DNA of 64,000 bases from contig CANLOV010000008.1 of assembly GCA_947492955.1 (NCBI GenBank), positions 124,001 to 188,000 on the forward strand, written 5' to 3'. Each line of letters starts with the position of its first letter. Within the stretch, counting starts at the first letter, position 1. The position numbers and the translations under genes were made by a program. Source of the DNA: an uncultured Cellulophaga sp. (GTDB taxonomy: Bacteria; Bacteroidota; Bacteroidia; Flavobacteriales; Flavobacteriaceae). The notes beneath the pieces are model-generated. The model made no database searches. It saw only the letters and a program-made list of their open reading frames with translations, and had not been told where the DNA came from. Positions 13,544-57,766 of the stretch are shown piece by piece.

Positions 13544-13668
13544 AATAAAGTTAGTTAAAAAATTAATACATACACTAGCTTAATTCATTTTTTTTGAAAT
13601 TTTAGTAGAAAAAGAAGAAATAATGTGCTTTAGGAGGTAAAAAAGAACATTGTTTTGATGTTTTTTTG

Positions 13669-13752
13669 TGCCCACGACTGGATTCGAACCAGCACGTCCT
13701 TGCGAACACCACCCCCTCAAGGTGGCGTGTCTACCAATTTCACCACGTGGGC
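13669..13752 (-). tRNA. tRNA-Leu (GAG)
   Basis: On the minus strand the acceptor stem GCCCACG (13752-13746) pairs with CGTGGGC (13676-13670), followed by discriminator A at 13669. The anticodon arm CCACC-TTGAGGG-GGTGG gives anticodon GAG. A long class II variable arm (TGTTCGCAAGGACG) and a T-arm with GGTTCGAATCC are present. CCA is not encoded. Confidence 0.95.
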
Positions 13753-54958: not shown

Positions 54959-56802
54959 TTAGATATCCAAATCAAATTCGGACCTAAGTAAATCTATAAC
55001 GGGGTTTTTTTCTCTTAATTTCTCGTATTTTTCTTCAGGAGTAAAAGCAAATTTTTTGGCTGTTTGTTCGTTTACAGTTATCTGTAGTTTAATAAAATGG
55101 TTGTTTAGTTTACCACGCAAATATTCTATAAGGTCGTATTGCTCGCGCTCAATTTCCTTTTTCATAGTATCGTTTGGTAACTCTATCCAAAGTGTAGTAT
55201 CGTTTCGTAACTTAGGAATATCTGTATTTAAATTAGAAGCTAATATTTTACGCCCGTCCGCATCAATCTTTTGAACAAAATCTGCCCAATGTTTTTGCAT
55301 ATCCTCTTCAATGATAGTTTCTCTAGGTAATTTACTTTCGTCTATTACCTCCTCCTTTTTATTAAGTTGATGTTCTTTTTTTGCTTTTAAGCTAGAGATA
55401 GATAAGCCAGAAATACGTTTTTTAGGAATACTAATATCTATTTTTGGCTTAGGAACTTCGGTTACAGGCTCAGCAATAGTTTCTGTGTTAGGAGCAGTCG
55501 CAAGCTCAGTTTTAGGTTCTGCAACTACGGGTTCTGTTGTAGTTGCTGCACTATATTCTAAAGAATTAGTAGTGTTTACAGGAGTGGGTTCTGGTGTACT
55601 GGTAACTGCTTCTACAACTTTTTCCTTTTCGCTAGTTGTAACTTTAGGAGCTACAGGAGTACTATTTTTATAATAAGCAGCAGGAACAATAGGGATTTCT
55701 ATTCCGTTACTTTCTAGACTAAAGTTTTTTTTTTTTTTTTTTCTCCATCAAAATTGATAGAGGCTAATTTCATAAGTGTTAATTCAACTAGTAAGCGTTG
55801 GTTTTTGCTAGTCTTGTATTTTAAATCACTATCATTAGCAATATCAATGCCTTGTAATAAAAATGCAGGCGATGTTTTTTTAGACTGTTCTAAGTAGTTC
55901 TTTTTGGCTTCTTCTCCTACTTCTAACAGCGAGATAGTATTTTGGTGCTGACATACCATTAAATCTCTAAAGTGGGAAGCTAAACCTGTTATAAAGTGAT
56001 GCCCATCAAAACCTTGGGCTAAGGTTTCATTAAATAAAAGTAATAATGAAGGAATATCATTTGCTAAAATTAAATCTGTAGCCGAAAAATACGTATCGTA
56101 ATCTAAAACGTTTAAATTTTCAGTTACTGCTTTTCTGGTAAGTTCTTTACCAGAAAAACTAACGACTCTATCAAAAATAGATAAAGCATCTCGCATGGCG
56201 CCATCTGCTTTTTGTGCAATAATATGCAAGGCATCATCTTCTGCATTAATCCCTTGATTTTCTGCAATATATTTTAAGTACTCAGCAGCATCTTTTACCG
56301 TAATTCGTTTAAAATCAAATATCTGACAACGAGAGAGTATTGTGGGTATAATTTTATGTTTCTCTGTAGTTGCTAGTATAAAAATAGCGTGCTTTGGTGG
56401 TTCTTCTAAGGTTTTTAAAAAAGCATTAAAAGCAGACTGAGAAAGCATATGCACCTCATCTATAATGTATACTTTGTATTTTCCTACTTGTGGCGGTATA
56501 CGAACTTGGTCTATAAGGTTTCTAATATCGTCTACAGAGTTGTTAGAAGCGGCATCTAACTCAAAAATATTAAAAGCAAAATCCTCGTCGGTATTTTCGT
56601 TGCCTTCTTGGTTTATTTTTTTTGCTAGAATACGAGCGCAGGTAGTTTTACCTACACCTCTTGGACCACAAAAAAGTAAAGCTTGCGCCAAATGATTGTT
56701 ATCAATGGCATTTAATAAGGTATTGGTAATAGATTGCTGCCCCACAACATCTTTAAATGTTTGCGGTCTATATTTACGGGCAGATACTACAAATGGTTCC
56801 AA
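54959..56802 (-). CDS. dnaX: DNA polymerase III gamma/tau subunit, tau reached by frameshift
   Basis: The ATP-loading clamp-loader subunit. The first 362 residues are in one frame: Walker A GPRGVGKTTCAR, Walker B VYIIDEVHM, SRC motif SRCQIFDFKR and domain III. At the end of domain III the coding strand has GAG then 18 A residues (55742-55725), and the genomic frame ends a few codons later (TLV, stop). A -1 shift opens the other frame without any stop down to 54959: a Pro/Thr/Glu-rich linker, then a folded C-terminal domain (MQKHWADFVQKIDADG, NPVIDLLRSEFDLDI). That gives a tau of about 614 residues. Production of both forms by slippage is inferred. The usual four zinc-binding cysteines are absent. 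Confidence 0.85.
55714..56802 (-). CDS. dnaX: Gamma-length DnaX product encoded in the genomic frame
   Basis: Without any shift, translation stops after 362 residues (ending in five lysines and TLV). This covers the AAA+ module (domains I-II, about residues 1-240) and the collar domain III (about 243-355), exactly the part kept in E. coli gamma. It is a complete clamp-loader subunit but lacks the tau tail that binds polymerase and helicase. It starts at an ATG 29 bases after a TATATTTG promoter box on this strand. Confidence 0.75.
   Translation of the reverse strand: MEPFVVSARKYRPQTFKDVVGQQSITNTLLNAIDNNHLAQALLFCGPRGVGKTTCARILAKKINQEGNENTDEDFAFNIFELDAASNNSVDDIRNLIDQVRIPPQVGKYKVYIIDEVHMLSQSAFNAFLKTLEEPPKHAIFILATTEKHKIIPTILSRCQIFDFKRITVKDAAEYLKYIAENQGINAEDDALHIIAQKADGAMRDALSIFDRVVSFSGKELTRKAVTENLNVLDYDTYFSATDLILANDIPSLLLLFNETLAQGFDGHHFITGLASHFRDLMVCQHQNTISLLEVGEEAKKNYLEQSKKTSPAFLLQGIDIANDSDLKYKTSKNQRLLVELTLMKLASINFDGEKKKKKTLV
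55725..55742 (-). promoter_or_regulatory. 18-base homopolymer (A18 on the coding strand), putative slippage site
   Basis: An uninterrupted run of 18 T on the plus strand (A on the coding strand) sits at the gamma/tau junction of dnaX. Runs of nine or more A are known to cause transcriptional slippage (dnaX of Thermus thermophilus uses A9). A length error in the assembly is the alternative. Confidence 0.7.
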
Positions 56803-56958: not shown

Positions 56959-56963
56959 CGTTT

Positions 56964-57277
56964 AGCAGGTCACCTTATCGCTGCATGTAAAACTTGTTTT
57001 TACATGGAGAGGAAAGTCCGGACACCATAGTGCAGTATAGCGGGTAACGCCCGTCCGCCGAGAGGTGAGGACAAGTGCAGCAGAAAGTATGTACAGGTAA
57101 TGCTGTAGTGAAACCAGGTAAACTCTATGCGGTGCAACGCCATGTAAATCAGTGTTTAAGGGTGCACGCCCAAACTGAAGGGTAGGCGGTTAGAGCTTCT
57201 AAGTAATTAGTTGTCTAGATAAATGATAAGGACCTTTAAACTTGTTTAAAGTTACAGAATCCGGCTTATGACCTGCT
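56964..57277 (+). ncRNA. rnpB: RNase P RNA (class A)
   Basis: The catalytic RNA of RNase P that matures tRNA 5' ends. The terminal P1 stem AGCAGGTCA (56964-56972) pairs with TGACCTGCT (57269-57277). The conserved core is present: GAGGAAAGTCCGGAC in the 5' part (from about 57009), GGGTAACGCCCG, GAAACCAGGTAAACTC-like sequence, and ACAGAATCCGGCTTA near the 3' end. The 3' arm overlaps the stop codon of the converging acetyltransferase gene. Confidence 0.95.
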
Positions 57278-57766
57278 TTTATTATTTAAGATTAATTGCC
57301 AATAAGCTACATCTATCCATTTATCAAATTTGTAACCTACTTCTTTAAAATGGGCAACCTTTTTAAATCCTAATTTTTCGTGCAATGCAATACTAGCCTC
57401 ATTAGGTAGCGCAATACCACCAATTACAGTATGAAACTTTTTAGCTTTAATCCTTTTTAATAATTCGTTATAAAGTAAAGTTCCAACACCTTTTTCTTTT
57501 TTATTGTATTTTAAATAAATAGTAGCTTCTACAGAATTTTTATAGGCACATCTAGATTTCCAATTGCTAGCATATGCATAGCCTATAACTTCATTGTTAG
57601 ATTCGTACACTATCCAAGGAAGATTTGCTGTTATTTCTTTTATCCGTTTTTTTATTTCAGCTTCAGATACCATATCATTTTCAAAGGTAATAACAGTGTT
57701 TTTTATATAGTAATTATAAATATCAGCTATACTTTTAGCATCATTTTCTCTTATAGGTCTTATCAT
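57266..57766 (-). CDS. GNAT N-acetyltransferase, phosphinothricin acetyltransferase-like
   Basis: The product has 166 residues. The pattern IRPIRENDAKSIADIYNYYI, FENDMVSEAE and ASNWKSRCAYKNSVEATIYL matches the Pat/Bar branch of the GNAT family; the acetyl-CoA loop is KKEKGVGTLLY and the C-terminal strand motif is NEASIALHEKLGFKKVAHF. It acetylates small amines, perhaps amino acid analogues, in the cytosol. Its last codon and stop lie within the 3' end of rnpB on the other strand. Confidence 0.9.
   Translation of the reverse strand: MIRPIRENDAKSIADIYNYYIKNTVITFENDMVSEAEIKKRIKEITANLPWIVYESNNEVIGYAYASNWKSRCAYKNSVEATIYLKYNKKEKGVGTLLYNELLKRIKAKKFHTVIGGIALPNEASIALHEKLGFKKVAHFKEVGYKFDKWIDVAYWQLILNNKSRS

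Follow-up and report, generated by a model that had tools for sequence, protein, structure and literature searches.

A conserved A run with an abutting putative hairpin in dnaX of a Cellulophaga species and its relatives: a candidate recoding module with a variable tau register

Introduction

In Escherichia coli, gamma and tau are made from one dnaX gene by a -1 ribosomal frameshift at an A-rich site, A_AAA_AAG, which is accompanied by an upstream Shine-Dalgarno (SD) sequence and a downstream stem-loop (PMC5009743, PMC3711429; accessible text). In Thermus thermophilus, as described in the accessible text of the sources, the two proteins come from mixed mRNAs produced at a run of nine A residues (A9) with stops in both non-tau frames, the genomic frame being that of tau (PMC1088944, PMC5009743). 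Antonov (2013) listed 17 two-ORF dnaX genes that need recoding for tau, nine of them with A10, and proposed transcriptional realignment (PMC3711429, accessible part), and a 2016 review states, in the part available to us, that a change of one base can reverse the roles (PMC5009743). According to the available text of a further report, a frameshifted dnaX of Blochmannia is believed to remain functional through slippage (PMC3017870). Outside dnaX, an RNA hairpin directly 5' of the slip site stimulates slippage in Roseiflexus IS630, where a T5C5 site in a transposase gene undergoes single-base deletion (Penno 2015, as summarised in the accessible text of PMC5009743).

How does the dnaX locus of the window, i.e. 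the whole 64,000-nt stretch of DNA from an uncultured Cellulophaga sp. that was analysed here, compare with these systems? It shares two ORFs, with tau reached via a -1 shift at poly-A, with the genes of Antonov (2013), but its run is A18, and neither an upstream hairpin nor register flipping within a genus is mentioned in the accessible text of that paper. Like the Thermus gene, it has an A run of nine or more at the end of gamma and nearby stops in both non-tau frames, so that mixed mRNAs would give gamma and tau, yet the run is twice as long and tau lies one frame off. A predicted hairpin abuts the slip site as in Roseiflexus IS630, but here the site is A10-A18 and the gene is one of replication; unlike the E. 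coli site, that of the window carries no downstream stem-loop signal. Since recoding-dependent two-ORF dnaX genes were published in 2013, the central idea of the original prediction for this locus, namely that tau is apparently made only by slippage at the run, was known in kind.

Loci compared

Protein searches found dnaX in 18 of 18 genus genomes, 242 of 249 genomes of a family sample, 58 of 60 of a class sample and 59 of 61 of a phylum sample, and the best 80 of 589 named loci were added; E-value limits differed among these searches. 'Family-level' denotes at least 75% identity over gamma, with no taxonomic check. Duplicates (L035, L118, L137 and L148) were dropped, as were L209 and L211, which are the window again; L035 (Cellulophaga baltica) was removed for sharing its dnaX stretch with L005 of the genus, a match that probably places the window in Cellulophaga or a near relative. 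The truncated loci L119, L156 and L227 were excluded, and so was G032 from the family rows (contig end). Of the 57 class-sample matches other than the window, 49 were examined. Loci picked for a short open frame (nine picked, one of them truncated and one a duplicate) entered both the tree and the run and register counts at family level, in which the out-of-frame shares are therefore inflated.

The dnaX locus of the window

The features of the locus, together with two other RNA genes of the window, are collected in Table 1.

Table 1. Features of the dnaX locus and other RNA genes in the window
Feature	Position	Strand	Evidence or remark
dnaX, genomic frame, gamma-length product	55714..56802	-	TTG start at 56802; 362 aa; C-terminal end EKKKKKTLV*; TIGR02397, 393 bits
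Putative RNA hairpin CUCUAUCA-AUUU-UGAUGGAG, immediately 5' of the run	55743..55762	-	Fold, covariation, synonymous constraint
Candidate slippage run A18	55725..55742	-	A10 in most relatives
TAG terminating gamma, genomic frame	55714..55716	-	Sequence
TAG closing the third frame	55719..55721	-	Sequence
Tau-specific part: linker rich in Pro/Thr, and C-terminal part	54959..55723	-	Frame accessible via +1 A or -2 A; NF011531, purifying selection
RNase P RNA (RF00010)	56962..57283	+	199 bits; divergent, just upstream of dnaX
tRNA-Leu (gag)	13668..13752	-	Sole tRNA detected in the window

The layout proposed originally is borne out by the sequence: there is an A18 run on the minus strand, the genomic frame ends in a gamma-length product, and a tau-like frame is open one register over. 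The run encodes the five lysines of the gamma terminus, the tau frame continues for 254 codons without a stop and includes the peptide HWADFVQK, and the third frame is stopped at most 6 bases past the run (CTT TAG). From this it follows, as had been proposed, that the short form is the default and that tau needs a shift, through the gain of one A, the loss of two or a -1 step of the ribosome. The gamma part is a DnaX-family clamp-loader ATPase, its score lying well above the TIGR02397 cut-off of 250 bits, and the 3' part is a tau-type C-terminal extension that aligns with positions 387-613 of the 614 in NF011531 (88.7 bits; the whole-model cut-off of 685 is out of reach for a 3' fragment scored alone). 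No Pfam family matched the tau-specific 3' part at E 0.1, and no Rfam family matched the hairpin/run site at gathering scores. A second dnaX copy was considered as a source of tau and rejected: the genome search returned a single dnaX in the assembly, the weaker matches being partial only, and tau should therefore come from this locus. The TTG start of the window gene has counterparts among the family-level representatives, TTG being the first aligned dnaX codon in 70 of 129.

The A run in the window and among relatives

No other A/T run of 12 or more occurs in the window, and when its sequence was shuffled 100 times with dinucleotides preserved, one shuffle reached as many A12 matches. Across the 3.87-Mb assembly, A18 is the longest A/T run and the sole one of at least 13, the second longest of the 18 runs of at least 10 being A11. 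Runs of 13 or more are found somewhere in the genome in 14 of the 18 genus genomes; within dnaX, such a run is confined to the window, and the other 17 genomes carry A10. (In one genome, G006, long A/T runs at or near the starts of contigs C2, C19 and C23 look like assembly ends, not biology.)

The 138 family-level loci comprise 127 with A10, seven with A11, two with A12, one with A9 and the window with A18, an expansion of the usual A10 site. A run of A9 or longer is present in 39 of 47 untruncated loci of the class sample. Among the 16 loci of less than 50% identity, six have A9 (one of the six coming from the class sample). The A10 module at the dnaX junction occurs widely in the class. A set of class and phylum loci (L171, L174, L177, L179, L180 and L199-L208) have no run of A9 or longer near the junction and carry tau in frame; in these the module is lost or was never present.

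Closure of the alternative frames

Both non-tau frames stop within 30 nt after the run in 177 of the 188 loci with A9 or longer, a result for which the first control was modest, since 35% of random positions also stop both frames under looser limits. With limits of 9 and 17 nt, both frames are closed in 152 of 171 loci, as against 11% of comparable positions in the same genes; taken singly, the frames are closed in 164 and 159 of the 171, as against 33% and 39%, a background that is uncorrected for kinship. Codon choice points the same way. An [IVL]IP motif follows the run in 79 of 162 representatives and begins with ATA in 68 of the 79; where the first residue is Ile, ATA is used in 68 of 70 cases, compared with 23% of Ile codons elsewhere. 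Because an ATA codon with A as the next base gives TAA in one of the other frames, this preference fits frame closing. Heterogeneity in run length needs both frames to be closed, and a one-way ribosomal shift needs less.

The hairpin abutting the run

When codon choice was scanned along gamma in 129 representatives, a block of synonymous constraint appeared just before the run, with ATC for Ile in 104 of 116 cases (21% elsewhere) and GGA for Gly in 101 of 113 (30% elsewhere). Columns of this block rank 5, 7, 9 and 11 among 322, other high ranks being scattered through gamma. A separate observation concerns column 118 of the gamma alignment, possibly in an IIDEVHM motif, where Glu is encoded by GAG in 115 of 129 representatives, as against 28% of Glu codons.

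The window hairpin has a fold of -9.6 kcal/mol (z -3.2), and a stem score of at least 15 is found in 82% of the 129 family-level representatives but at 1% of random positions. Among 46 distinct sequences, 90.5% of cells pair and seven of the eight pairs have changed on both sides, values reached by none of 500 shuffles; sliding the partners by 1-3 leaves 28-58% pairing, and RNAalifold, unaided, recovers six of the pairs. The alignment behind the structure (A1) omits four of 51 chosen loci (L116, L117, L121 and L131) that differ in the phase, the offset or the length (A9) of the run, and the fixed-register structure is favoured by that omission. When all 129 representatives are held in the fixed register, 895 of 1032 cells pair, compared with a shuffled mean of 857 and a maximum of 871; 21 of the 129 keep fewer than six of the eight pairs, and in several of these the hairpin looks shifted by eye. 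With a slide of -4, the partners show more double-change cells than the structure does (49 vs 31), yet just 57% of their cells pair; slides of 1-3 in the set of 46 sequences brought no such excess.

A stable hairpin no more than 3 nt away from the run was found at 124 of the 139 family-level loci and at 33 of the 52 outside the family, the other 19 of those 52 lacking one. All 18 loci of the genus have it, as do 30 of the 37 out-of-frame loci. The corresponding controls gave 12% and 18% for random positions and 10.8% for 195 other runs of A8 or longer in the same loci, all three still including the six duplicate loci. In the window's genome, the remaining 17 A/T runs of at least 10 all lack a stable hairpin within 3 nt, and a covariance model (R1) run on the assembly scored dnaX at 69.3 bits and the next hit at 20.9 bits (E 2.5; 150 of 3666 first-look candidates scored). 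Outside the family, the stem sequences are unrelated and the run may lie anywhere between 4 and 119 nt from where domain III ends. Unrelated stems, variable distance and the 17 other runs without a hairpin together indicate that the hairpin travels with the run, not with the protein. A terminator was considered for this hairpin and rejected, as neither strand has the order hairpin-then-T: what comes after the hairpin on the coding strand is A, and in the opposite strand the T residues stand before it.

Register changes and selection on tau

Conservation of the A run and of the frame offset among relatives had also been at issue originally. The run is indeed conserved (A10 in 127 of 138 family-level loci), and the offset varies: tau is out of frame in seven of the 18 genus genomes and in frame in 11, and in the family sample it is out of frame in nine of 149 rows among the matches listed (150 of 242), all nine confirmed from sequence. 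These are the less biased shares. In the class sample, tau is out of frame at 15 of the 39 loci with a run, and 14 of the 15 share the register of the window. At least 17 register changes are counted on a quick 138-tip family-level tree that was built from the part before the run and is enriched in out-of-frame loci; by eye, 14 of these flips lead to the +1 register and three to the -1 register (sign test P 0.013). Overall, 33 of 37 out-of-frame loci share the +1 register of the window and four have the opposite one.

Could the length or register of A18 be a sequencing or assembly error, or a culture variant, with tau in frame in the usual dnaX of the strain? No other run among the 138 family-level loci exceeds A12, either 16 or 19 A would bring tau in frame, and the assembly is a 57-contig draft. 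The run lies inside a contig, however, six other genus genomes are out of frame with A10, and two Flagellimonas loci appear, by eye, to be shifted against their kin at a place outside the homopolymer, which argues against sequencing error as a general cause. We regard such an error or variant as improbable, and it would leave the conserved module untouched.

The tau codons themselves are under purifying selection in out-of-frame as in in-frame pairs. Omega for tau is 0.075-0.275 in 10 of 12 out-of-frame pairs, the remaining two being without usable dS, and 0.057-0.169 in eight of 10 in-frame pairs, all of these values being rough, as many dS exceed 1. Only some out-of-frame pairs are sisters. 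For the window, omega is 0.153 against L005, 0.183 against L013 and 0.154 against the in-frame L007, with no usable dS against L009. Out-of-frame sisters that probably share one flip gave 0.093 (L005-L006), 0.141 (L009-L012) and 0.125-0.258 (three L183-L185 pairs). Tau codons kept under such selection suggest that tau is presumably made in the window species. That tau is lost or decaying there, gamma alone being made, would agree with a genomic frame that stops after gamma, but the 254 stop-free tau codons, omega values of 0.15-0.18 against relatives and the single-copy dnaX render it very improbable; some small probability attaches to a very recent loss of tau in this species. Separate translation of the tau domain by internal initiation, e.g. 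at the ATG at 55300 that begins a 113-aa ORF, would skip the linker, which nevertheless remains open and in frame; as gamma and tau form one ORF in in-frame relatives and the slippage module is intact, we consider this the least probable of all the alternatives.

Transcription or translation

The window site is, as judged from these comparisons, a real and conserved recoding module. At which level does it act? Transcription appears to be the better-supported level of slippage, because both non-tau frames are closed, the runs are A10 and not A7, both registers occur, a hairpin abuts the run and no downstream stem-loop is seen (z -0.42 in the window; mean z -0.42 in 81 of 162 representatives, every second one being taken, vs -0.23 in controls, P 0.27). 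The geometry of the site also suggests a transcription complex. The RNA:DNA hybrid measures 9-10 bp (PMC5009743, accessible text), so that with a run of ten the hybrid behind the active site is all rA:dT at the very point where the hairpin can form outside. Hairpin-assisted slippage of RNA polymerase that would yield gamma and tau regardless of the genomic frame, the window representing a reversed register and an expanded run, is the reading we favour, with a probability of about 0.7.

According to this mechanism, RNA polymerase would transcribe first the hairpin and then the A run; with the 9-10 bp hybrid now consisting entirely of rA:dT, the hairpin would form at its upstream edge and loosen it, and realignment of the RNA would give mRNAs with extra or missing A residues. 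One frame class of these mRNAs would be translated into tau, and the other two would run into a stop only a few codons on and give gamma. As the output would be set by slippage and not by the template frame, indels that flip the register would be tolerated. In a study of homopolymer slippage, the accessible text states that longer runs lead to more insertion and that the Thermus run in E. coli slips in both directions, with insertions predominant (PMC6260861), a predominance that fits the bias towards the +1 register. The sequences themselves show how the module is built, that the hairpin is conserved and covaries, that the other frames are closed, that the register flips and that tau is under selection; what we infer is slippage in the cell, the effect of the hairpin on it and the resulting tau:gamma ratio.

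Alternatively, gamma might be joined to tau by ribosomes that frameshift or slide on the lysine codons, tuned by the hairpin or by an SD-like GGAG. A -1 shift on A_AAA_AAA does reach the tau frame in the window, whose register is shared by 33 of the 37 out-of-frame loci, and the mostly +1 register that is tolerated can be explained by a -1 ribosomal shift or by mutational bias as well. Moreover, sliding of ribosomes in an E. coli cell-free system is robust at A11 and slight at A9 or A10, according to the available text (PMC4363877), so that it should act on A18 and may add to the effect. The runs, however, keep a length of A10 and not A7, the frame unused by a -1 shift is closed too (159 of 171 within 17 nt vs 39%), four loci are in the opposite register, and a downstream stem-loop signal is missing from the 81 representatives. 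The sequence GGAG or AGGA does occur by the run in 106 of 162 representatives, adjoining the run and lying within the 3' arm of the hairpin. An SD-like stimulator of the E. coli type sits about 10 nt upstream, and the GGAG beside the run may be better read as the 3' arm of the hairpin. In addition, Flavobacterium johnsoniae rarely uses SD sequences and frameshifts poorly at prfB, as the accessible part of that study reports (PMC12421855), which lowers the likelihood of a ribosomal shift driven by an SD sequence. Taken together, a ribosomal origin of tau strikes us as unlikely, though somewhat less so than an error in the run. The claim that tau arises only by slippage therefore stands in part: slippage by RNA polymerase is better supported, and sequence does not separate from it an action of sliding ribosomes on A18.

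Novelty and implications

A literature search did not find the features of the site that are apparently new: the abutting hairpin, its class-wide recurrence with unrelated stems, and repeated register flips within genus and family. Nor did it find in print the exact A10 of 127 of the 138 family-level loci or the closing of both frames in 177 of 188. The search covered titles and the starts of abstracts in open-licence literature, where no upstream hairpin in dnaX of Bacteroidota was recognised, which is weak evidence of absence. Does a single class-wide design lie behind these features? We put it at slightly better than even that a module of constant geometry sets the tau:gamma ratio by slippage of RNA polymerase throughout the class, so that the genomic frame would be nearly irrelevant and flip freely between species. 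That geometry, to which we extend the same narrow preference, would consist of a hairpin flush against an A run of hybrid length, with both other frames closed and with stem sequences unrelated to one another.

To these comparisons the window contributes the longest run among the loci compared, and the synonymous positions within the hairpin render the slippage idea directly testable. If the reading is correct, a housekeeping gene would use the kind of hairpin-assisted slippage that the accessible literature describes for an insertion sequence. Plain reading of the genomes would then return a truncated DnaX in seven of the 18 genus genomes and in 15 of the 39 class-sample loci with a run, in all of which tau is probably made.
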